Shown here piece by piece: positions 19,848 to 46,563 of a stretch of DNA of 64,000 nt. The notes beneath the pieces were generated by a model. The model saw only the letters and a list, made by a program, of their open reading frames with translations. It searched no databases and was not told the DNA's origin. Within the stretch, counting starts at the first letter, position 1. Each line of letters begins with the position of its first letter. The position numbers and the translations under genes were made by a program. Source of the stretch: Rhodococcus jostii RHA1 (GTDB lineage Bacteria; Actinomycetota; Actinomycetes; Mycobacteriales; Mycobacteriaceae); the NCBI RefSeq assembly GCF_000014565.1, contig NC_008268.1, forward strand, positions 2,666,001-2,730,000, read 5' to 3'.

Positions 19848-20033
19848 ATGAGTACCGATTTCAAGCTCTACCGCTGCGCCCAATGCGGATTCGAATACGA
19901 CGAGGCCGAGGGATGGCCGGAGGACGGCATCGAGCCCGGCACCAGGTGGGACGACATTCCCGAGGACTGGTCGTGCCCCGACTGCGGGGCCGCCAAGGCG
20001 GACTTCGACATGGTCGAGGTCAGCCGGGCGTGA
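19848..20033 (+). CDS. rubA2: Rubredoxin, AlkG2 type
   Basis: The 61-residue rubredoxin has CAQC (10-13) and CPDC (43-46) iron ligands. The sequence after the second knuckle, [12 protein letters not shown], lacks the extra arginine and matches AlkG2-type rubredoxins that pass electrons from rubredoxin reductase to AlkB. It starts one base after the rubA1 stop, and the reductase GTG overlaps its own stop (GTGA). Confidence 0.93.
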
Positions 20034-35803: not shown

Positions 35804-37285
35804 ATGACGCAGTTACGTGTACTGGTCACCGGTGCCACCGGATACATCGGCGGACGCCTCGCTCCCCGGCTCTCGCAAGCCGGCTATCGGGTGCGGGTGC
35901 TGGTGCGTTCACCCGAGAAGCTGACCGACGTCCCGTGGGCGTCCGACGTCGAGATCGCCCGCGGCGACCTGAGCGATCCCGAAACCCTTTCTGCCGCTTT
36001 CACGGACGTGGACGTCGTCTACTACCTCGTGCATTCGATGGGTGGTGCGGACGAGTTCGAGGAGGCCGAACGCGTCAGCGCGGAGAACGTGGCCGAGGCG
36101 GCCCGCACGTCGGGTGTCGGCCGGATCGTCTACCTCGGCGGGCTGCATCCCGACTCGGTGGACCTCTCTCCGCACCTGCGCTCCCGCACACAGGTGGGGC
36201 AGATTCTCGTCGACTCCGGTGTTCCCACAATGGTTCTGCAGGCCGGGGTGGTCATCGGCTCCGGTTCGGCGTCGTTCGAGATGATCCGTCATCTCACCAA
36301 CCGGCTCCCCGTGATGACCACCCCGCGGTGGGTGAACAACAAGATCCAGCCGATCGCGGTCCGCGACGTGCTGCACTACCTCGTTGCCGCGGCCGAGGCA
36401 TCGTTGCCGCACAGTCGCACGTTCGACATCGGCGGCCCCGACGTCATCCGCTACGGCGAGATGATGCAGACGTACGCCGAGGTCGCCGGTCTGCGTCAGC
36501 GTCGCATCCTCGTCCTTCCCGTGCTGACCCCGAAGCTCGCCGGTCTGTGGATCGGTCTGGTCACCCCGATCCCCCGCTCGCTCGGCCGGGCGCTGATCGA
36601 ATCGCTGCAGAACGACGCCGTCGCCTCCGAGCACGACATCGACGACGTCATTCCACCGCCGAAGGCCGGCCTGACGACATACCGGGACGCCGTGCGACTG
36701 GCGTTGCGGCGCATCGACAACGGTGAGGTGGAGACGACGTGGGCGAGTGCGTCCCCGGTCGGCGCCCCGTCCGATCCGTTGCCATCCGACCCCGATTGGG
36801 CCGGTGAAGTCGTCTACACCGACGAACGCACCAGGGACTGCGACGCGGACGCCGGAACGCTGTGGAGCGTCGTGGAGAGCATCGGCGGTGAGAACGGCTG
36901 GTACTCGTTCCCGCTCGCGTGGTCGGTGCGCGGCTGGCTCGACCGCGTGGTCGGCGGTGTCGGTCTCACCCGCGGACGCCGGAACCCGAAGCAACTCAAC
37001 ACCGGCGACCCCTTGGACTTCTGGCGAGTCGAACGCATCGACCGGGGGTCCCTGCTACGACTGCGCGCCGAAATGCGGGCGCCGGGCGGGGCGTGGCTCG
37101 AATGGTGCGTCCACAGTGTGGATTCCGACCGGTCCCGACTCGATCAGCGGGCCATCTTCTTCCCGAAAGGCCTCGCCGGACGGCTGTACTGGTACTCCAT
37201 CATGCCGTTCCACGGAATCATCTTCAAAGGCATGATGGAGAACATCACCGGATCCGCAGCCCGTCAGACCGTGCAGAGCGGCTGA
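35804..37285 (+). CDS. SDR-type NAD(P)-binding protein with DUF2867 C-terminus
   Basis: The 493-residue protein has an N-terminal atypical SDR domain (VLVTGATGYIGGRLAPRL at residues 6-23, DVVYYLVHSMGG near 70-81) and a C-terminal DUF2867 domain (from about residue 330, with LDRVVGGVGLTRGRRNPKQL). The pairing of these domains is usual for the group, whose members are thought to act on lipids or quinones. The ATG at 35804 lies two codons after a GTG. The stop overlaps the convergent lipocalin gene by 22 bases. Confidence 0.8.
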   Translation: MTQLRVLVTGATGYIGGRLAPRLSQAGYRVRVLVRSPEKLTDVPWASDVEIARGDLSDPETLSAAFTDVDVVYYLVHSMGGADEFEEAERVSAENVAEAARTSGVGRIVYLGGLHPDSVDLSPHLRSRTQVGQILVDSGVPTMVLQAGVVIGSGSASFEMIRHLTNRLPVMTTPRWVNNKIQPIAVRDVLHYLVAAAEASLPHSRTFDIGGPDVIRYGEMMQTYAEVAGLRQRRILVLPVLTPKLAGLWIGLVTPIPRSLGRALIESLQNDAVASEHDIDDVIPPPKAGLTTYRDAVRLALRRIDNGEVETTWASASPVGAPSDPLPSDPDWAGEVVYTDERTRDCDADAGTLWSVVESIGGENGWYSFPLAWSVRGWLDRVVGGVGLTRGRRNPKQLNTGDPLDFWRVERIDRGSLLRLRAEMRAPGGAWLEWCVHSVDSDRSRLDQRAIFFPKGLAGRLYWYSIMPFHGIIFKGMMENITGSAARQTVQSG

Positions 37286-37866
37286 ATTCCTTCTCGGCCG
37301 CCGGTGGTCGGGGACGTCAGCAGCAGGCACGAGTTGTAGCCACGCGATTCCACCACCTGCCGGATCTGCGTCCATCCCGCGTCGTCGACCGCCGGGTTGC
37401 GGGAGAGGACGAAACCCGAAGCCCGTGCCGGGTCACCGACGAGCGCCCACGAGTAGTCGTCGGCGATGTAGGTGACCACATAGTTGGTGGGACCGTCCGG
37501 TGAACTCTGGAACGGCACATCCGGGAAACTCACGTGGAGTTGCGCATTGGTGACCGGGTCGTTGACACGCGCATTGCCGTTGATGCCGTTCGTCCCTCCC
37601 GCCCAGGTGGTGCACGAGTTGGCGACGCTGACGTTCGACGAGTCCACGAGCCCGTACGTCGCCCTGGTGTCCCGCGCACAGTCCAGGTTGAACGGCTGTG
37701 GCACAGCGGCCAACTGATACCACGTGCCGAGGTACCGCGGCACGTCGAGGGACGGGACGGGTGCGAGCGCACCGGGCTGAGCCTGTGCCGGGCTCGCCGC
37801 CAGCACCACGGCCGCAGCGGCGGTCAGCAGTCCTGCGGCGAATCCACGTGCCTTCGAGAGTCTCAT
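37264..37866 (-). CDS. Secreted lipocalin-family protein
   Basis: The 200-residue protein has a Sec signal peptide (about residues 1-29, AAAAVVLAASPAQAQ) and a lipocalin/Blc-like barrel. The lipocalin signature is YLGTWYQLAAVPQPF near residues 44-58, with the C-terminal strand WALVGDPARASGFVLSR. It has cysteines (CARDT, NSCTTW, SCLLL, LCTV) that can form disulfides outside the cell. Lipocalins carry lipids or other hydrophobic ligands in the envelope. A SigK-type promoter is 79-105 bases upstream, divergent from that of the fasciclin gene. Confidence 0.85.
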   Translation of the reverse strand: MRLSKARGFAAGLLTAAAAVVLAASPAQAQPGALAPVPSLDVPRYLGTWYQLAAVPQPFNLDCARDTRATYGLVDSSNVSVANSCTTWAGGTNGINGNARVNDPVTNAQLHVSFPDVPFQSSPDGPTNYVVTYIADDYSWALVGDPARASGFVLSRNPAVDDAGWTQIRQVVESRGYNSCLLLTSPTTGGREGIQPLCTV

Positions 37867-37944: not shown

Positions 37945-37971
37945 ATTCGACGCCACTTCCGGATCGGATGG
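37945..37971 (-). promoter_or_regulatory. Predicted SigK promoter of the lipocalin gene
   Basis: On the minus strand the sequence is CCATCC (37971-37966), 15 bases, TCGAAT (37950-37945). It differs from the SigK consensus CCATCC/CCGAAT at one position, and the spacer length equals that of the two other sites in this locus. Transcription would start roughly 70 bases before the ATG. Confidence 0.7.
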
Positions 37972-37994
37972 GCCGATCCGGGAAAACGTTCCAC

Positions 37995-38021
37995 CCATCC
38001 GTTCTGGAGACCGCTCCGAAT
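37995..38021 (+). promoter_or_regulatory. Predicted SigK promoter of the fasciclin gene
   Basis: CCATCC (37995-38000), a 15-base spacer and CCGAAT (38016-38021) match both elements of the mycobacterial SigK consensus exactly. The gene downstream encodes a fasciclin lipoprotein like MPT83, a known SigK-regulated product in Mycobacterium tuberculosis. Confidence 0.85.
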
Positions 38022-38071
38022 GCCTGTCGATGGTGCTCATCCGCACCCACACCGGAGAGAGGCAATAACCC

Positions 38072-38737
38072 ATGAACATCACCACACGAGTTCTGGCAGT
38101 CGCAGCGAGCACGTCCCTCGTCCTGCTTGGCGCAGCGTGTTCGTCGGACGACAGCGACTCGTCGAGCAGCGGCTCCGCCTCGGAGGCGATGACGTCCGAG
38201 TCGATGTCGTCCGGTTCGACGACCTCGTCCGCGATGGCCGATCCCGCCGCCAACCTGGTCGGTCCGGGCTGCGCCGAGTACGCGAAGACGGTGCCCGACG
38301 GCGCCGGTTCGGTCAGCGGCATGGCGCAGGATCCGGTCGCGACCGCCGCGTCCAACAACCCGCTGCTCACCACCCTCACCGCCGCCATATCCGGTCAGCT
38401 CAACCCGCAGGTCAACCTGGTGGACACGCTGAACAGCGGACAGTTCACGGTGTTCGCGCCGGTGGATGCCGCGTTCGCGAAGGTCGACCCCGCCACGATC
38501 GAAACTCTCAAAACCGACCCGGCGCTGCTCACCAAGGTCCTCACCTACCACGTGGTCCCCGGCCAGATCGCGCCGAGTGACATCGACGGCCAGCACACGA
38601 CCGTCGAGGGTGGCACGGTCACCGTCACCGGTTCGGGCGACGACCTGAAGGTCAACGACGCCGGCGTCATCTGCGGTGGCGTCCAAACCGCCAACGCCAC
38701 CGTGTACCTGGTCGACACCGTCCTGATGCCCCAGTAA
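38072..38737 (+). CDS. Fasciclin (FAS1) domain lipoprotein, MPT83-like
   Basis: The 221-residue protein has a lipoprotein signal peptide with lipobox LGAAC near residues 20-24, a serine-rich linker (residues ~27-55) and one FAS1 domain (~70-220). The FAS1 conserved boxes are [16 protein letters not shown] and [12 protein letters not shown], with a cysteine pair (GPGCAEY and VICGGV) as in MPT70/MPT83. These surface proteins of mycobacteria are controlled by SigK, and here a SigK-type promoter precedes the gene and sigK itself lies 7 kb downstream. Role: cell-surface adhesion or envelope. Confidence 0.9.
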
Positions 38738-38763
38738 GCACGCTCGTCTCACAGATCTCCGCG

Positions 38764-38798
38764 CCCGGCGGCATCGGTCCCACACCGATGCCGCCGGG
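38764..38798 (+). terminator. Strong intrinsic hairpin after the fasciclin gene
   Basis: Perfect 15-bp arms CCCGGCGGCATCGGT (38764-38778) and ACCGATGCCGCCGGG (38784-38798) enclose a five-base loop, followed by TTCTTG. It separates the fasciclin gene from the following operon. Confidence 0.85.
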
Positions 38799-38812
38799 TT
38801 CTTGCGTGCTCC

Positions 38813-38858
38813 CACGTGAGTGCCACGGTGCGCTCGGGCACGCTTCGCCACTCACGTG
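38813..38858. repeat. Partial copy of the family-2 palindrome
   Basis: CACGTGAGTG (38813-38822) and CACTCACGTG (38849-38858) form perfect 10-base outer arms of an imperfect dyad. The right half, CGCTTCGCCACTCACGTG, is identical to the right half of the perfect palindrome at 46518-46563 that closes the same operon. The left half has diverged. Confidence 0.65.
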
Positions 38859-38875
38859 AGCGGGTGCGGGTCCGC

Positions 38876-38902
38876 CCATCCGACACAAACTCAGCTCCGA
38901 AT
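38876..38902 (+). promoter_or_regulatory. Predicted SigK promoter of the sigK-containing operon
   Basis: CCATCC (38876-38881), a 15-base spacer and CCGAAT (38897-38902) match the SigK consensus exactly. The first ATG begins eight bases after the -10 element, so transcripts are probably leaderless. This would make SigK control its own operon. Confidence 0.85.
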
Positions 38903-38909
38903 AACGGTT

Positions 38910-39557
38910 ATGGAGAAAGGCTCACCCACCGCCCCGGCGTACGTACTGGTACTGCCCGGCGGCAAACCACGCAGTCAGGCACCCTCGCGGTGCTGGCACC
39001 TGTCGAATCTGCGCATGGCCTGGATGGCCTGGTCTCTGAGGGCGAGGCTCGGGCGGCACGGAATCGTCGTGGAGCGGTTGCAGTACCGGGTCCGCGGATG
39101 GAACGCCCCCGAGGCCAGTCCGGTGCACGACGCCCGGGTGGTCGTCGAACGGGCCCGGCTGCGGTTCGGGAACGTCCCCGTCGCCGTCGTCGGGCATTCG
39201 ATGGGCGGCCGCGTCGCCGCCCACCTCGCCGCCCTCGACAACGTCCGGGCGATCGCCGCGCTCGCACCCTGGTGGCCCGCGTCCGACGGCGAACTGGTGC
39301 CCGCCGACCGCAGCCTGATGGTCGCGCACGGAACCGCCGACCGCTGGACGGATCCCACCTCGTCCCGGGTGCAGACCGAGCAGGCGCTGGCTCGCGGGGT
39401 GAACGCCTCGTGGACTCCCCTGACGGGAGCCGGACATTTCATGCTCACCCGGCCGCGCTGGTGGCATCGCATCACCGCCGATTTCGTTCTCGACGCCTTC
39501 GCCGCGGAAGGTGTCGTCGCCGCACCGACTGACCGGAAAGCAGGTCGCCATGCATGA
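38910..39557 (+). CDS. Alpha/beta hydrolase, first gene of the sigK operon
   Basis: The 215-residue hydrolase has the nucleophile elbow VVGHSMGGRVAAHL near residues 90-103, a likely acid in HGTADRWTDP and a histidine in GAGHFML near residue 175. Substrate unknown; lipid ester cleavage would suit the operon. No Shine-Dalgarno sequence is present before the ATG, and the -10 of a SigK promoter ends eight bases earlier, which implies a leaderless message. The stop overlaps the next start. Confidence 0.75.
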   Translation: MEKGSPTAPAYVLVLPGGKPRSQAPSRCWHLSNLRMAWMAWSLRARLGRHGIVVERLQYRVRGWNAPEASPVHDARVVVERARLRFGNVPVAVVGHSMGGRVAAHLAALDNVRAIAALAPWWPASDGELVPADRSLMVAHGTADRWTDPTSSRVQTEQALARGVNASWTPLTGAGHFMLTRPRWWHRITADFVLDAFAAEGVVAAPTDRKAGRHA

Positions 39558-40890
39558 TTCGGAGAAGCTCGAACGCAGGAACGTCGCGGTGATCGGCAGC
39601 GGCGTCGCCGGGTTGACCGCCGCCTACGTTCTGTCCCGCCACGACCGCGTCACCCTCTACGAGGCGGACGCCCGTCTCGGCGGTCACGCCCACACCCACC
39701 ATCTGACGCTCGACTCGGGCGCAGAAGTGGACGTCGACACGGGCTTCATCGTGCACAACGACCGCACCTACCCCACGCTGCTGCGCCTGTTCGCCGAACT
39801 CGACGTGGCCACCCAGGATTCGGACATGTCGATGTCGATCCGATCCGATGCGAGCGGGCTCGAATACGCTGGTGCGAAGGGGATCCGCGGGCTGTTCCCC
39901 ACTGCCCGCACCCTGGCCAGGCCGCGGTATTGGCGGATGCTCGGCGAGGTTCTCCGGTTCCACCGCCGCGCCCGTGCCGTGCTCGACACCCCGGCCGACG
40001 AGGCGTGCGCGCAGGAACCGCTGGGCGAGTTCCTGCGCCGCAACGGTTTCAGCCGGTATTTCGTCGAGAATTTCATGACTCCGCTCGTCGCGGCGGTGTG
40101 GTCGTGCGATCCCACGACGGCCGCGCACTACCCGGCCCGCTACCTGTTCACGTTCCTCGAGCACCACGGAATGCTCACCGTCTTCGGATCACCCACGTGG
40201 CGGACCGTGACGGGCGGCTCTGCCCGCTACGTCGAGAAGGTGGCGGCACACCTCGACGAGATACTTCTCGGCGCCCCCGTGCAGCGGGTGGAACGCACTC
40301 CGGACGGCGGCGCGTGCGTCGTCGACGGCAGCGGCGACGTCCGGTACTTCGACGCCATGGTGGTGGCCGTTCACCCCTGTCAGGCGCTCGCCCTGCTCGG
40401 CGACGCCTCGGACCTCGAGACCGAGATCCTCGGCGACATGCCGTACTCGGTGAATCACGCTCAGCTGCACACCGACGAGTCGCTGCTCCCCCGCGCGGAG
40501 AACGCCCGGGCCTCGTGGAACTACCTGACTCCCGCCGACAGCACGGACGCGACGGGCGTCATCGTCACCTATGACATGACCCGGCTGATGCGCCTGGACA
40601 CCGTGCACGACCGGCGGTTCCTCGTCACGCTCGGCGGCAAGCACCTCGTCGACCCGACGACGGTCGTCGCCGAGATGACGTACGAGCACCCCGTCTACAC
40701 CCCCGAATCCGTGGCGGCGCAGTCGCGGCTGAGCGAACTCGGCTCCGGCACGTTCGCTTTCGCCGGCGCTTACCACGGCTGGGGGTTCCACGAGGACGGG
40801 GCGCTCTCGGGCCTGCGCGCCGCCGAACGGATCGGTGGATCGTGGGATACGCACGCCGGACGACACCGCGAACGGGAGACGGTGTCGTGA
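39550..40890 (+). CDS. FAD-dependent oxidoreductase (Rv0449c-like)
   Basis: The 446-residue flavoprotein of the NAD(P)-binding Rossmann/amine-oxidase type opens with NVAVIGSGVAGLTAAYVLSR near residues 11-30 and has YEADARLGGHAHTHHLTLD as the second FAD segment (written here as ADARLGGHAHTHH). The C-terminal FAGAYHGWGFHEDGALSG is typical of the group. In M. tuberculosis the homologous gene Rv0449c starts the sigK operon and is followed, as here, by DUF1365, a methyltransferase, DUF1295, sigK and rskA. It probably desaturates or reduces a fatty acyl chain together with the methyltransferases. Confidence 0.85.
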   Translation: MHDSEKLERRNVAVIGSGVAGLTAAYVLSRHDRVTLYEADARLGGHAHTHHLTLDSGAEVDVDTGFIVHNDRTYPTLLRLFAELDVATQDSDMSMSIRSDASGLEYAGAKGIRGLFPTARTLARPRYWRMLGEVLRFHRRARAVLDTPADEACAQEPLGEFLRRNGFSRYFVENFMTPLVAAVWSCDPTTAAHYPARYLFTFLEHHGMLTVFGSPTWRTVTGGSARYVEKVAAHLDEILLGAPVQRVERTPDGGACVVDGSGDVRYFDAMVVAVHPCQALALLGDASDLETEILGDMPYSVNHAQLHTDESLLPRAENARASWNYLTPADSTDATGVIVTYDMTRLMRLDTVHDRRFLVTLGGKHLVDPTTVVAEMTYEHPVYTPESVAAQSRLSELGSGTFAFAGAYHGWGFHEDGALSGLRAAERIGGSWDTHAGRHRERETVS

Positions 40891-41627
40891 CCGCGCCGGC
40901 GATCTACTCGACGACGATCCGGCACGCCCGCACCGAACCCGTCCGCAACAGTTTCGAGTATTCGAGCTACTGCTGGTACGTCGACGTCGACGACCTTCCG
41001 CACCTGCCCGGGTGGCTCGGCCCGTTCGCCCGCTTCCGCGCCGAGGATCACTTCGAGCCGGTCCCCGGTGCCGGCGCGGACACGCTGCGCGCCAGGGTGG
41101 ATGCGTTCCTCGCCACCCACGGAGTCGACCTCCGCGGCGGGACGGTGACGGCGCTCCTCAACGCGCGGGTGCTCGGATACGTGTTCAACCCGCTCAGCGT
41201 GTACTGGTGCCACGACGTCGACGGCACCCTCCGCTGTGTGATCGCCGAGGTACACAACACCTATGGTCAACGGCACAGCTACCTGATCCGGCCCGACAGC
41301 CGCGACCGCGCCGAGGTGGACAAGCAGTTCTACGTCTCCCCGTTCAACGACGTGAGCGGCCGCTACGAGATGCGGTTCCCCGAGCCCGGCGACACGCTCT
41401 CGCTGAACGTGGTACTCCACCGGGACGGACACGCCCCGTTCACCGCGACGGTGCGGGGAACGCGGCAGCCCGCCACCCACCGCACGGTCCTGAAGACCCA
41501 ACTACGCACTCCCCTGGCACCTCTCGTGGTGTCGGCTCGCATTCGCATCCAGGGAATCACTCTGTGGGCCCGTGGACTCCCCGTCACGACTCGGCCCGAC
41601 GGCCGGCAGAAGGAGACAGTTCAGTGA
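40887..41627 (+). CDS. DUF1365 family protein (Rv0448c-like)
   Basis: The 246-residue DUF1365 protein has TTIRHARTEPVRNSFEYSSY at the start and the conserved VLGYVFNPLSVYWCHDVDG and KQFYVSPFNDVSGRYEMRF blocks (each quoted only in part: GYVFNPLSVYW, FYVSPFNDVSG). The family regularly lies between an FAD oxidoreductase and a cyclopropane-fatty-acid synthase and may be a lipid-binding partner; its activity is unknown. GTG at 40887 overlaps the preceding stop and has GGGAGA upstream. Confidence 0.85.
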   Translation: MTAPAIYSTTIRHARTEPVRNSFEYSSYCWYVDVDDLPHLPGWLGPFARFRAEDHFEPVPGAGADTLRARVDAFLATHGVDLRGGTVTALLNARVLGYVFNPLSVYWCHDVDGTLRCVIAEVHNTYGQRHSYLIRPDSRDRAEVDKQFYVSPFNDVSGRYEMRFPEPGDTLSLNVVLHRDGHAPFTATVRGTRQPATHRTVLKTQLRTPLAPLVVSARIRIQGITLWARGLPVTTRPDGRQKETVQ

Positions 41628-43012
41628 GAAGGAACAAGGACACCGACATGGACGCATCGCCTGCCGTCAGTACCGCCGACCTCGCGTTCACCGTCGAGGA
41701 TCCGCGGATCGACAACCGGATCTGGCCCGGGCTGGCCGACGTGCCGACCGGTCTGCGTGCCTCGGTGTCGGCGAAGGTCGCCGACCGCCTGTTCCGCCGC
41801 GCGGCCGCCGACCTCGACGTCCGCATCGAGTACCCCGACGGCACCCTGGTGGGGGCGCGCCGGGAACCGGAGATCCTGCCGCGCATGATCATCCGCAACC
41901 CGGGCGCGTTCGCCCGGCGCGTCGGAACGAGCGGCCTCATCGGTTTCGGCGAGTCGTACATGGCCGGCGACTGGACGTCGCCGGATCTCGCCGCGGTGCT
42001 GAGCGTGTTCGCCTCCAGGATGGCCACCCTCGTTCCCCGCCCGCTGCAACGGTTGCGCGCACTCTATGTCGCCAAACACCCCGCCCAGGAACGAAACACC
42101 GAGCAGAACACCCGCTCCAACATCTCCCGGCACTACGACCTGTCCAACGAGATGTTCGAGACGTTCCTCGACGAGACCCTGACGTACTCGAGCGCACTGT
42201 TCGCGTCGACGCCGACCCGGGTGGGTCAGGTACGGGACGTGACGGTCCTGCGGGCACCCGTCCCACAGGTCTCCCCGAAGTGGGGGGATTTCGCGGACGC
42301 GCAGCGCCGCAAGATCGATCGGCTGCTCGACGAGGCCGGCGTCGGTGCGGGCACCAGGCTGCTCGAGGTCGGGACAGGCTGGGGAGAACTGTGCATCCGG
42401 GCGGCGGAACGCGGCGCCGTGGTCCGCTCGGTGACATTGTCCAGCGAACAGCAGAGCCTGGCCCGCCTGCGGGTGGCCGAGGCCGGCCACTCGGACACCG
42501 TGCAGATCGACCTGCTCGACTACCGCAACGTCGACGGCGAGTACGACGCCATCGTGTCGGTGGAGATGATCGAGGCCGTCGGACATCAGTACTGGGCCAC
42601 CTACTTCCGGGTGCTCGACAAGCTCCTCGCCCCGGGCGGAAGGGTGGCGCTGCAGGCGATCACCATGCCGCACGATCGGATGCTGCAGACCCGCAACACC
42701 TACACCTGGGTGCACAAGTACATCTTCCCGGGCGGTTTCCTCCCGTCGACCGAGGCGATCGAATCCGTCACCGCCGAACACACCGCGCTGCGGGTACGGG
42801 AACGCCTGAGCATGGGACAGCACTACGCGGAGACGCTGCGGCTGTGGAAGGAGCGGTTCGCCGCGCACAGCGCGCAGGCGGAAGAACTCGGATTCGACGA
42901 GACGTTCCGCCGCATGTGGCATTTCTACCTCTGCTACTCGGAGGCCGGGTTCCGCTCCGGCTACATCGACGTCCAGCAGCTCGTCCTCGACAAGACGGGA
43001 GCACGACCGTGA
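41624..43012 (+). CDS. Cyclopropane-fatty-acyl-phospholipid synthase family methyltransferase 1 (UfaA1-like)
   Basis: The 462-residue SAM-dependent methyltransferase belongs to the CFA-synthase family, which methylates or cyclopropanates unsaturated acyl chains of phospholipids. A lipid-binding N-terminal domain (~40-170) ends with NISRHYDLSNEMFETFLD. SAM motif I is LLEVGTGWGELCIRAAERG near residues 245-263, and VEMIEAVGHQYW follows. In mycobacteria one such gene (ufaA1, Rv0447c) occupies this position. GTG at 41624 has AAGGAG eight bases upstream and overlaps the previous stop; ATG at 41648 is possible. Confidence 0.88.
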   Translation: MRRNKDTDMDASPAVSTADLAFTVEDPRIDNRIWPGLADVPTGLRASVSAKVADRLFRRAAADLDVRIEYPDGTLVGARREPEILPRMIIRNPGAFARRVGTSGLIGFGESYMAGDWTSPDLAAVLSVFASRMATLVPRPLQRLRALYVAKHPAQERNTEQNTRSNISRHYDLSNEMFETFLDETLTYSSALFASTPTRVGQVRDVTVLRAPVPQVSPKWGDFADAQRRKIDRLLDEAGVGAGTRLLEVGTGWGELCIRAAERGAVVRSVTLSSEQQSLARLRVAEAGHSDTVQIDLLDYRNVDGEYDAIVSVEMIEAVGHQYWATYFRVLDKLLAPGGRVALQAITMPHDRMLQTRNTYTWVHKYIFPGGFLPSTEAIESVTAEHTALRVRERLSMGQHYAETLRLWKERFAAHSAQAEELGFDETFRRMWHFYLCYSEAGFRSGYIDVQQLVLDKTGARP

Positions 43013-44313
43013 CCGTTGCCGCCGAACTCGACAAGGCGTTGCGCCCGCTCGTCCGCGGTGAACTGCCCGTGCATCTGACCGCGTGGGACGGCAGCACCGC
43101 CGGGCCGGCGACGGCACCGAAGGTGGTGCTGCGCAGCCCGGACGCCGTGCGCCGATTGCTGTGGAGCCCCGGGGAACTCGGGGCCGCACAGGCCTACGTG
43201 ACCGGTGAGATCGACGTCGAGGGCGACCTGGGCGAGGCCCTGGCACACGTGTGGGCGGTGGCGCGCGAGCGAGGACTCAGCGGAGTCCGGCCGAGCCCGT
43301 GGACGGTCGCGAAGGTGCTGCGCGTCGCCGCGAAGCTGGGTGTCACGGGCGGGCCGCTTCCCACACCCGCCACACAGGCGAACATCCGCGGCCCGCTGCA
43401 CAGCCTGATGCGCGACCGTGCCGCGATCAGTCACCACTACGATCTCTCCAACGACTTCTACGCGCTGATCCTGGACCCGCAGATGGCCTACTCGTGCGCC
43501 TATTTCACCCGGAATGCGCCGGGAACGCCGCAGGATTCGGACTACGGACTCGAGGATGCCCAGCGGGACAAGCTCGACCTGGTGTGCCGCAAGATCGGAC
43601 TCGAACCCGACATGCGGCTGCTCGACGTCGGATGCGGCTGGGGATCGCTGAGCCTCCACGCCGCGGCCGAATACGGTGCACAGGTCGTCGGTGTCACCAT
43701 CTCCCGTGAGCAGAAGGCATTCATCGACAAGCGGATCGCCGAGCGTGGGCTGCAGGACCGCGTCGAGATCCGTCTGCAGGATTACCGCGAGGTCCCCGAC
43801 GGTCCGTTCGACGCCGTCGCGTCCCTCGAAATGGGTGAGCACGTAGGCGAGAAGAACTACGCCCGGTATGCGCAGGCCCTCTACGACAACGCGAAACCCG
43901 GTGCGCGGGTGCTGATCCAGCAGATGTCGCGCACCGGACGCCATCCCGGCGGCGGCCCGTTCATCGAGTCGTTCATAGCTCCCGACATGACCATGCGTCC
44001 CGTCGGTGAGAGCGTCGCGTACCTCGAACGAGCCGGGCTCGAGGTGCGCGACGTGCATGGTCTCCGTGAGCATTACGTCTGGACCGTCGATGCCTGGCTG
44101 GAGAAGTTCGAGTCCCGCTGGGACGACGCCGTCGAGATGGTCGGGCTCGAGATGGCCCGGGTGTGGCGGCTGTACCTCGTCGGCGGCGGGATGAGCTTTG
44201 AGCAGGGCCGCATGGGTGTCGATCAGATCCTGGCCGTGAAGCCGACCGCGGCGGGTCAGTCGATGATGCCTGCTGTGCGGGTCGATTCCGCGGGATCCGG
44301 CGTGCTCCGATGA
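43009..44313 (+). CDS. Cyclopropane-fatty-acyl-phospholipid synthase family methyltransferase 2
   Basis: The 434-residue protein is a second CFA-synthase paralogue in the same operon. It has ISHHYDLSNDFYALILDPQM as the lipid-site motif, SAM motif I LLDVGCGWGSLSLHAAAEYG near residues 204-223 and the active-site SLEMGEHVGEKNYARYA. It is closer to the canonical VGCGWG form than its neighbour. Having two methyltransferases between DUF1365 and DUF1295 differs from the single ufaA1 of M. tuberculosis and suggests sequential or alternative acyl-chain modification. GTG overlaps the preceding stop. Confidence 0.88.
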   Translation: MTVAAELDKALRPLVRGELPVHLTAWDGSTAGPATAPKVVLRSPDAVRRLLWSPGELGAAQAYVTGEIDVEGDLGEALAHVWAVARERGLSGVRPSPWTVAKVLRVAAKLGVTGGPLPTPATQANIRGPLHSLMRDRAAISHHYDLSNDFYALILDPQMAYSCAYFTRNAPGTPQDSDYGLEDAQRDKLDLVCRKIGLEPDMRLLDVGCGWGSLSLHAAAEYGAQVVGVTISREQKAFIDKRIAERGLQDRVEIRLQDYREVPDGPFDAVASLEMGEHVGEKNYARYAQALYDNAKPGARVLIQQMSRTGRHPGGGPFIESFIAPDMTMRPVGESVAYLERAGLEVRDVHGLREHYVWTVDAWLEKFESRWDDAVEMVGLEMARVWRLYLVGGGMSFEQGRMGVDQILAVKPTAAGQSMMPAVRVDSAGSGVLR

Positions 44314-45110
44314 ACGGATTCGACTGGTCGAACTTCGGCGCCGTCACCGCGGCGAGCCTTCTCGTGCTCGCCGTCTTCCAGGCCGCGACATTCCTCGTCG
44401 GCCGGCGGATCGGACGCTACAACGTCGTCGATGTGTCCTGGGGCCTCGGTTTCGTCCTGGTAGCGCTCGTGGCCGCCGTCATCGGCGACGGCGACGCACT
44501 GCGCCGCTGGCTGGTGGTGGTGCTCGTCGCGGTGTGGGGTCTGCGACTGACCTGGCACATGTACGCCAAGTCGGCGGGCAAGGGCGAGGACCCCCGCTAC
44601 GTGGAGATGCTCGACAGGGCGGGCGGCAACTCGCCCTGGGTCGTCGTCAGGAAGATCTTTCTCACCCAGGGACTCGCGCAGTGGTTCGTGTCGCTGCCGC
44701 TGCAGGTGTCGGCAGTGCTCGGTCCCGCATCCGGGCTCGGCGCGGTCGTCGGGGTGCTCGGCGCCCTCCTGTGGGTGGTCGGTGTCGTGTTCGAAGCGGT
44801 CGGCGACCACCAGTTGATGGCGTTCAAGGCAGACCCGTCCAACAAGGGCGAGATCATGGACGTCGGCCTGTGGGCATGGACGCGGCACCCGAACTACTTC
44901 GGCGACTCCTGCGTGTGGTGGGGACTGTGGCTCCTCGCGGCGAGCGTGTGGCCCGGCGCCGTCACCGTGCTGTCTCCCGTGGTCATGACGTACTTCCTGG
45001 TGTTCGCAACCGGGGCGAGGCTGCTCGAGAAGTCGATGTCGCAGCGTCCCGGCTACCCCGAATACCAGCAGCGCACCAGCTATTTCCTCCCCTTGCCGCC
45101 GAAGCGGTGA
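44310..45110 (+). CDS. DUF1295 membrane protein (Rv0446c-like, steroid-5-alpha-reductase fold)
   Basis: The 266-residue protein has about six transmembrane segments and belongs to DUF1295, related to the C-terminal domain of steroid 5-alpha-reductases and isoprenylcysteine methyltransferases. The conserved NVVDVSWGLGFVLVAL is near residues 38-53 and the cofactor motif GLWAWTRHPNYFGD near 188-201. With the FAD oxidoreductase it may reduce a methylene or unsaturated fatty acyl chain made by the CFA enzymes. It overlaps the preceding gene by ATGA; 98 bases separate it from sigK. Confidence 0.85.
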   Translation: MNGFDWSNFGAVTAASLLVLAVFQAATFLVGRRIGRYNVVDVSWGLGFVLVALVAAVIGDGDALRRWLVVVLVAVWGLRLTWHMYAKSAGKGEDPRYVEMLDRAGGNSPWVVVRKIFLTQGLAQWFVSLPLQVSAVLGPASGLGAVVGVLGALLWVVGVVFEAVGDHQLMAFKADPSNKGEIMDVGLWAWTRHPNYFGDSCVWWGLWLLAASVWPGAVTVLSPVVMTYFLVFATGARLLEKSMSQRPGYPEYQQRTSYFLPLPPKR

Positions 45111-45208: not shown

Positions 45209-45787
45209 ATGACCGGTGTCGACAGGGACACGGAGAACGTGACGCTGACGGCGTTGCTGGCGCGTATCGCGCAGGGCGAGCGGGATGCCTTCAGCGACTT
45301 CTACGAACGCACCAGCGCGCGGGTGTACGGCATGGTGCTGCGGGTACTGCGCGATCCCGGATACAGCGAGGAAACCACCCAAGAGGTGTACCTGCAGGTC
45401 TGGAACAACGCGGACAAATTCGATCCGAAGCAGGGGTCACCGCTGTCGTGGCTGATCACCCTCGCACATCGCCGTGCCGTCGACCGGGTGCGGTCGGAGC
45501 AGTCCGGCACCGAACGGGAAGCCGCCTACGGCGCCTCGAGTTGGTACGGGCCGTTCGACGCGGTGTCGGAGGAAGTCACCCGACGCGGCGACACCAGCGA
45601 CGTCGTCGACTGCCTCGGCACGCTCACCGAAGTCCAGCAGAGAACCGTGGTCCTCGCCTATTACGGAGGCCTGACGTACCGAGAGGTGTCGGAACGGCTG
45701 TCCGTGGCGCTTCCCACGGTGAAATCACGAATTCGAGACGGACTGATCAGGCTCAAGCAATGTCTGGGGGTGCAGTTCGATGGATGA
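45209..45787 (+). CDS. sigK: ECF sigma factor SigK
   Basis: The 192-residue ECF sigma factor has region 2 (AFSDFYERTSARVYGMVLRV through SEETTQEVYLQVW) and region 4 (VQQRTVVLAYYGGLTYREVS, LPTVKSRIRDGLIRLKQ). Sequence and context match SigK of mycobacteria: rskA follows immediately and Rv0446c-Rv0449c-like genes precede it. It should direct RNA polymerase to CCATCC/CCGAAT promoters, three of which lie at 37.9-38.9 kb. ATG at 45209 is chosen by comparison with the N-terminus of mycobacterial SigK; upstream in-frame GTG/ATG codons at 45107-45116 would give an unusual tail. Confidence 0.93.
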   Translation: MTGVDRDTENVTLTALLARIAQGERDAFSDFYERTSARVYGMVLRVLRDPGYSEETTQEVYLQVWNNADKFDPKQGSPLSWLITLAHRRAVDRVRSEQSGTEREAAYGASSWYGPFDAVSEEVTRRGDTSDVVDCLGTLTEVQQRTVVLAYYGGLTYREVSERLSVALPTVKSRIRDGLIRLKQCLGVQFDG

Positions 45788-46517
45788 GTCCCAGCACGAA
45801 ATCCTCGACCTCGCCCAGGTGTACGCCCTCGACGCCGTCGACGATCAGCAGCGCCGCGAGATCGACACCGCGGTGCAGAGCGCACCGCCCGACGTTCGCC
45901 TCGAATTCGACACCGCCGTGCGCGATGTGCACGAGACGATGGCCGCCCAGTCCGCGTCCACCGCGGTCGAGCCGCCCGTTCACCTGCTCGGGCGCATCCT
46001 CGATGCATTGCCCGGCACCGCCGCTGCACCCGCACCGATAGCACTGGACGAGGTTCGTGCGCGCAAGCGCAGGCGTCTCGTGGCGGCACTCAGTGCGGCG
46101 GCCGCGGTGATCGTCCTCGCCGTGGGTGGCATCACCGTCGCCCAGCAGTTGCAGAGCGAGGACGGCCAACCCGTGCCCGCGCAGATCCTCGCGGCCGACG
46201 ACGTCCGCACGGCGGTGGCACCGATCGCCGGTGGCGGTTCGGCCACAGTCGTGTACTCCAAGGACGTCGACGCCGGAGTGCTGGTGATGAACGACGTCCC
46301 GCCGCCCGCACCGGGTTCGGTGTATCAGATGTGGCTGCTCGGACCGTCACACGAGCCGGTGTCCGCCGGAATCATGGAAGCCGATGACGTGTCACCGTCG
46401 ACCACCGCGGTCGTGAACGACATCGACCAGTCCACGGAACTCGGATTCAGTGTGGAACCGCCCGGCGGTTCCACCCAGCCGACCGGCGACATCTTCGCGA
46501 CGGTGAACCTCACCTGA
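45780..46517 (+). CDS. rskA: Anti-sigma-K factor RskA
   Basis: The 245-residue membrane anti-sigma factor has a cytoplasmic SigK-binding domain (residues ~1-95, ILDLAQVYALDAVDDQQRRE at the start), basic stop-transfer RKRRR at 96-99, one transmembrane helix (~100-121) and an extracytoplasmic RskA C-terminal domain (VYSKDVDAGVLVMNDVPPP and PGSVYQMWLLG). In mycobacteria RskA holds SigK inactive until regulated intramembrane proteolysis releases it. Its start lies inside the sigK stop region, so the two are coupled. It is followed at once by a perfect terminator palindrome. Confidence 0.92.
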   Translation: MDESQHEILDLAQVYALDAVDDQQRREIDTAVQSAPPDVRLEFDTAVRDVHETMAAQSASTAVEPPVHLLGRILDALPGTAAAPAPIALDEVRARKRRRLVAALSAAAAVIVLAVGGITVAQQLQSEDGQPVPAQILAADDVRTAVAPIAGGGSATVVYSKDVDAGVLVMNDVPPPAPGSVYQMWLLGPSHEPVSAGIMEADDVSPSTTAVVNDIDQSTELGFSVEPPGGSTQPTGDIFATVNLT

Positions 46518-46563
46518 CACGTGAGTGGCGAAGCGTCCCGCGGGACGCTTCGCCACTCACGTG
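46518..46563. terminator. Perfect 46-bp palindrome, family 2 (bidirectional terminator)
   Basis: Twenty-three-base arms are fully complementary: the left half starts CACGTGAGTGGCGAAGCG and meets its mirror image at TCCCG|CGGGA. It begins directly after the rskA stop and ends 13 bases before the glcB stop, so it can terminate both convergent genes. The right half occurs again at 38841-38858. Confidence 0.88.

Follow-up and report, generated by a model that had tools for sequence, protein, structure and literature searches.

A probable SigK-RskA regulon in Rhodococcus jostii RHA1 with conserved promoter sites at its own and at other loci

Gene content and promoter sites of the locus

Within the 64,000-nucleotide stretch of the Rhodococcus jostii RHA1 genome that was analysed (the window), a lipocalin gene and a fasciclin lipoprotein gene point away from each other, followed by an operon that begins with an alpha/beta hydrolase gene and, as the first-pass annotation had read it and the gene families and their order bear out, ends with sigK and then rskA (Table 1). 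The same annotation had pointed to mpt83/mpt70, which are fasciclins and known SigK targets in mycobacteria, a reading that agrees with the match of the protein to MPT70 (1nyo, E-value 3e-66), which makes it MPT70/MPT83-like, and with the SigK-type site in front of its gene. The DUF1365 protein of the operon is the only one found in the RHA1 genome.

Table 1. Genes and SigK-type promoter sites of the locus, in window positions.
Feature	Position	Strand	Details
Lipocalin (Lipocalin_2, Blc-like)	37264..37866	-	Pfam, NCBIfam
SigK-type promoter, lipocalin	37945..37971	-	CCATCC-N15-TCGAAT; -35 37966-37971, -10 37945-37950
SigK-type promoter, fasciclin lipoprotein	37995..38021	+	CCATCC-N15-CCGAAT; -35 37995-38000, -10 38016-38021
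Fasciclin lipoprotein, MPT70/MPT83-like	38072..38737	+	Pfam; structure match 1nyo; lipobox-like LLGAAC near N-terminus
SigK-type promoter, operon	38876..38902	+	CCATCC-N15-CCGAAT; -35 38876-38881, -10 38897-38902; ATG 7 nt past -10
Alpha/beta hydrolase, operon gene 1	38910..39557	+	Pfam; start placed by conserved ATG 7 nt past -10
FAD-dependent amine-oxidase-type oxidoreductase	39550..40890	+	Pfam; UfaD-like by position and class
DUF1365 protein (domain of UfaO)	40887..41627	+	Pfam
CFA/CMAS-type methyltransferase 1	41624..43012	+	Pfam, NCBIfam
CFA/CMAS-type methyltransferase 2	43009..44313	+	Pfam, NCBIfam
DUF1295 membrane protein	44310..45110	+	Pfam
sigK, ECF sigma factor	45209..45787	+	NCBIfam, 4nqw match, both redox cysteines present
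rskA, anti-sigma-K, RskA_N + RskA_C	45780..46517	+	PF22618, PF10099

The naming of the sigma factor as SigK is supported by a score of 304.6 bits against the NCBIfam SigK model NF007228 (cut-off 226) and by a match to the solved M. tuberculosis SigK (4nqw_A) at an E-value of 1e-59. One cysteine in DVVDCLGT and one in RLKQCLGV are matched by cysteines in the alignment to 4nqw, and the redox cysteine pair of M. tuberculosis SigK is numbered 133/183 in PMC7509140. SigK-like proteins without the pair were seen in three other genomes (L108, L109, and L118), and a Nocardia SigK without the cysteines is reported in the same paper (PMC7509140). The gene next to sigK is of the RskA type, both the RskA_N and RskA_C domains (PF22618 and PF10099) scoring above cut-off, and the earlier naming of this gene holds as well. 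By model, cysteines, partner gene, and promoter, the circuit as predicted from sequence is SigK-RskA.

CCATCC/CCGAAT is the SigK promoter consensus of mycobacteria. The first-pass annotation had noted three CCATCC/YCGAAT pairs with a 15-base spacer within 1 kb, sharing an upstream part; all three were recovered to the nucleotide, and each lies inside CCCATCCG. The lipocalin and fasciclin promoters stand back-to-back, with their -35 elements 23 nt apart in the window and 23-26 nt apart in nine relatives. Matches to CCATCC-N14-18-YCGAAT number four in the window, against a mean of 0.10 in shuffled sequence (four or more in 0 of 100 shuffles); the fourth, at 19889-19916 on the minus strand with a spacer of N16, was taken as a chance match because it falls inside a gene predicted by a simple codon-usage gene caller. 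A scan of the whole genome, which the first-pass annotation had suggested, was run with the same range of spacers and returned 27 matches in 9,702,737 bases on four contigs. Since 14 of these have N15 (N14, 3; N16, 3; N17, 4; N18, 3), this spacer exceeds the others. Conserved sites were found elsewhere in the genome too (see below).

Repeats were also observed around the operon. Three copies of an 18-base element, CACGTGAGTGGCGAAGCG, are present. One lies a short way ahead of the operon promoter (38841-38858, minus strand), and the other two form the arms of a palindrome that begins directly behind the rskA stop codon (46518-46535, plus strand; 46546-46563, minus strand), so that the operon is bracketed by the element; allowing up to 3 mismatches, three copies were found in 0 of 100 shuffles. 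Between the fasciclin gene and the operon promoter, at 38764-38798, lies a GC-rich inverted repeat, CCCGGCGGCATCGG...CCGATGCCGCCGGG, which by eye is more or less kept in six of seven close relatives and is absent in the other (L084). This repeat may separate the fasciclin and operon transcripts; it has no T run and was not listed by the terminator scan.

Conservation of the sites and a fixed distance to the start codon

All three sites align to corresponding places in seven of seven close relatives (L079-L085), which are not independent of one another. Hexamer identity to the window is 1.00, except at the lipocalin -10 (0.95), where two of the seven relatives carry the lone change, a C/T exchange that the pattern permits; the fasciclin promoter hexamers are identical in all seven, and the spacers of the three sites are 77-82% identical. 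Because the relatives' sites were located with the pattern itself, the hexamer identities are conditioned on it, and the part independent of the pattern is the presence of the sites in all seven genomes together with their alignment to corresponding places. Two further rhodococci (L086 and L087), which are without the enzyme genes, carry two of the sites alongside their lipocalin, fasciclin, and sigK-rskA genes.

We then followed the operon promoter through the genus, where the FAD oxidoreductase is found in 24 of 28 Rhodococcus genomes. Twenty of these 24 loci carry an exact site and two a site with one mismatch (L186 and L196); one has none (L193), and one is cut by the contig end (L200). 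A one-mismatch match with a GTG start in the cut locus was left uncounted, as it lies downstream of the FAD-oxidoreductase start. In all 22 loci with a site, an ATG stands exactly 7 nt past the -10, opening a frame that runs either for 206-227 codons (the hydrolase) or, in register with the FAD oxidoreductase, for 441-448 codons. Of the 24 genomes, 10 have no sigK listed within 10 kb of the operon: in seven the two share a contig and are 276-347 kb apart, and in three they are on different contigs, where linkage is possible. All 10 separated operons have the site (nine exact, one with one mismatch), and a promoter kept away from sigK marks the adjacency as a lineage-specific arrangement. An R. 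erythropolis plasmid likewise carries the operon genes with no sigK nearby and has an exact site, from which the annotated start is 7 nt away.

Outside the genus, 23 genera of the family were sampled with one to three genomes apiece, which gave 40 loci out of 88 matching genomes. Within 2 kb upstream, 10 of the 40 carry an exact site and a further 16 one with a single mismatch (26 in total), against a background in resampled sequence of 0.05% for exact matches and 2.4% for at most one mismatch; in the other 14, no site with up to one mismatch was found over the same distance. At five of the 10 exact loci (L209, L212, L218, L230, and L237) the match has no start codon 7 nt downstream, and not every exact match outside the genus is an operon promoter. 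Of the 26 loci that carry a site, 19 have an ATG or GTG 7 nt past the -10; the background rate is 3.3% per position. As the scan for sites did not condition on a start codon, the 7-nt distance is an independent sign of function. With the -10 exactly 7 nt before the ATG, the operon mRNA is probably leaderless, starting at or next to the ATG. The fixed distance from the operon promoter to the ATG in Rhodococcus is new here, and together with the conserved promoter it gives exact predicted start sites.

A second SigK-RskA pair and sites at other loci

The module had been described in the first-pass annotation as compact and self-contained, a view that does not stand, since other rhodococci have the operon apart from sigK, and since RHA1 has a further SigK-RskA pair preceded by a promoter of its own as well as conserved sites at three other places. 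The second pair (SigK2) lies beside groES/groEL, 4 Mb from the window locus, and directly upstream of it is CCCATCCA-N14-CCGAAT, a promoter of the same type that recurs before sigK2 in at least eight of nine relatives' genomes searched, among the matches listed. In our data the pair occupies positions 4877-6281 of L033, and in six other loci (L094, L095, and L112-L115) the same place holds fasciclin-sigK-rskA. In a tree, the window SigK (SigK1) and SigK2 form separate clades within Rhodococcus, and M. tuberculosis SigK (4nqw) falls outside both, below an open fork. We take the gene order around sigK in M. tuberculosis to favour SigK1 over SigK2 as its ortholog.

The three other conserved sites stand upstream of a membrane molybdopterin oxidoreductase (L028, spacer N16), a lipoprotein (L032), and a 151-residue protein (L030). 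Among the matches listed, like sites occur in at least eight of the nine genomes for the first and in at least six of the nine for each of the others. The L155 locus lies outside the alignment of these further sites owing to a position filter; it has the site as well. At L030 and L032 the spacers diverge and the hexamers are kept along with the stretch past the -10; at L028 the spacer is invariant too in six relatives, and the footprint there is less telling. The 151-residue protein had 10 database hits, five of them from Rhodococcus and one a partial Comamonadaceae metagenome protein. These loci include two molybdopterin oxidoreductases of the Oxidored_molyb family (L028, 5423-6997; L032, 7174-8424). 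The one at L028 is under a SigK-type site; the one at L032 shares the strand of the L032 site but is some 1.2 kb upstream of it, which rules that site out as its promoter. Candidates at a PKS gene (L013/L031), at L010/L029, and at L021/L034 were dropped for want of a like spacer among the matches listed of nine relatives or of a downstream gene on the same strand.

It is quite possible, though we lean against it, that the main reader of the three window promoters is the groEL-linked SigK2, or that the two sigma factors share them; the apparent local autoregulation would then be cross-regulation of two SigK-RskA pairs. SigK2 is itself preceded by an exact promoter of the same type and has a near-identical presumed -35 recognition helix (the same as that of SigK1 at 13 of 16 positions), and in five genomes (G010, G015, G017, G018, and G025) the operon site is kept and the sigK copy found belongs to the SigK2 clade, about 340 kb off (on another contig in G010). 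By contrast, all eight RHA1-like genomes examined have the window-type sigK linked to the operon, which points to a dedicated partner, and the two sigma factors are only about 63-64% identical (64% across an alignment of 180 positions, and 53% within the linker). It is very unlikely that another ECF sigma factor with a similar consensus reads the sites: the genome does contain 13 hits to SigK at E≤1e-3, but beyond SigK and SigK2 the remaining 11 are at most 31% identical to SigK, the consensus is the one known for SigK, and the sites recur with sigK and fasciclin genes. That the sites are chance matches in GC-rich DNA is scarcely credible, for although many genome matches sit in genes or were not seen in relatives (at least 7 of the 27 counting as conserved and non-coding, among the matches listed in relatives), the footprints in seven relatives and across genera, the fixed 7-nt start-codon distance, and the shuffles all argue against it.

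Proposed circuit, candidate signal, and comparison with known systems

The locus is thus very probably that of a SigK-RskA regulon, an ECF sigma factor with its membrane anti-sigma factor, open to other loci. From the sites, their conservation, and the gene families, all of them observed, we infer transcription by SigK, feedback, and sharing with SigK2. RskA would hold SigK at the membrane until an envelope signal frees it, and SigK-RNA polymerase would then read CCCATCCR-N14-YCGAAT promoters. Two of these, back-to-back, would drive the lipocalin and the MPT83-like fasciclin lipoprotein, and the third an operon that encodes acyl-chain-modifying enzymes, closes with sigK-rskA, and would yield both SigK and RskA, hence positive feedback along with its own brake. 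The SigK2-RskA pair, the molybdopterin oxidoreductase, the second lipoprotein, and the 151-residue protein would join the regulon from other loci. Of the compact, autoregulated circuit with adjacent targets proposed in the first-pass annotation, the SigK-type sites at three genes stand, as does autoregulation, predicted because an operon with such a site ends in sigK-rskA; compactness and self-containment do not.

The signal that activates SigK is stated to be unknown in Veyrier 2020 (PMC7509140). The operon brings together a DUF1365 protein, an FAD-dependent desaturase-like protein, and a CFA methylase, which by domains and descriptions can be likened to UfaO, UfaD, and UfaM. In Rhodobacter sphaeroides, UfaM (a methylase), UfaD (an NAD/FAD-binding desaturase-like protein), and UfaO (which has a DUF1365 domain) are described as making furan fatty acids (PMC7380195), their genes as belonging to the RpoE-ChrR singlet-oxygen response (PMC6852236), and the fasciclin gene RSP_1409 as induced in that response (PMC7074977). 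R. capsulatus is described in PMC7074977 as having a singlet-oxygen-induced sigma/anti-sigma pair that resembles SigK and RskA more than it does RpoE and ChrR of R. sphaeroides, and as being without homologues of the enzymes. Light induction is described for ufaM in Pseudomonas mendocina (PMC9758184) and for the M. kansasii homologues of mpt83/mpt70, at which putative SigK sites are described as well (PMC9861118). The enzyme genes look like a furan-fatty-acid set that RpoE-ChrR or LitR controls in proteobacteria, and this likeness makes photo-oxidative membrane damage a candidate signal for SigK; the lack of the enzyme homologues in R. capsulatus counts against it. Taken further, and here we are doubtful, actinobacterial SigK-RskA might be a sensor of photo-oxidative (singlet-oxygen or lipid-peroxide) membrane damage, a counterpart of RpoE-ChrR/LitR that switches on the same cassette for methylated or furan-type fatty acids, with fasciclin, lipocalin, and an envelope molybdo-enzyme, the promoter being shared by two pairs in RHA1-like rhodococci.

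Seven plasmid neighbourhoods of DUF1365 genes were inspected out of 92 matched records. The FAD-oxidoreductase-DUF1365 pair adjoins a sigma factor with ChrR in Aminobacter, a sigma factor with a cupin protein in Azospirillum, SigK and an anti-sigma factor in Streptomyces, and a helix-turn-helix protein in Cupriavidus; it lies near a MerR regulator and a photolyase in Salinivibrio and has no regulator gene nearby in R. erythropolis, and in Mesorhizobium a short DUF1365 gene is next to a short photolyase gene. No exact site was found in six of the plasmid loci (L171-L176, from proteobacteria and one Streptomyces), nor any with up to one mismatch on the Streptomyces plasmid, where a sigK gene neighbours the enzyme genes of the cassette. 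The RHA1 genome has a single photolyase hit and a single phytoene-synthase-type hit; with one mismatch allowed in each hexamer and a spacer of 15-16, no SigK-type site was found in the stretches around them, which argues against a broad SigK light regulon, not against its lipid part. In the open literature (subscription papers being outside the scope), we found neither a discussion of furan fatty acids with Rv0449c, Rv0447c, ufaA1, Rv0448c, or tuberculostearic acid, nor a paper tying sigma factor K in mycobacteria to light and photooxidative stress together. The likeness of the cassette and the R. capsulatus locus offer a concrete and cheap test of the SigK-signal question in a soil strain.

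One of the closest known systems is the mycobacterial SigK-RskA regulon, which was reportedly the subject of work by Veyrier in 2008. The RHA1 system shares with it SigK, RskA, a fasciclin target, an autoregulated operon of the Rv0449c type, the redox cysteines, and the promoter consensus. Unlike that regulon, RHA1 has a lipocalin target, two SigK-RskA pairs in one genome, and further conserved sites at other loci, and unlike in M. tuberculosis, its operon has an extra hydrolase and a second CFA gene. A mpt83-sigK-rskA cassette, Rhodococcus included, is described in Veyrier 2020, as are autoregulation of M. tuberculosis SigK through Rv0449cp and its redox control by cysteines (PMC7509140). As the cassette and its presence in Rhodococcus had already been described there, the system is of a known kind and is here larger than thought.

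Two light- or oxygen-related systems were compared as well. The Pseudomonas LitR light regulon resembles the RHA1 operon in having an FAD oxidoreductase and a UfaM-type gene in one light-related cluster; it differs in its class II LitR regulator and in the photolyase gene of the cluster, and no SigK-RskA pair is described in the excerpted text (PMC9758184). As in Rhodobacter RpoE-ChrR (ECF11), an ECF sigma gene is near UfaD/UfaO-type genes and a CFA-type methylase, and a fasciclin is found in both (PMC6852236, PMC7074977, and PMC7380195). In contrast to RpoE-ChrR, the RHA1 anti-sigma factor is of the RskA type, RskA_N and RskA_C being the only domains reported, and the best NCBIfam model for the sigma factor is SigK. 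The RHA1 system is not RpoE-ChrR, but it may act like it.
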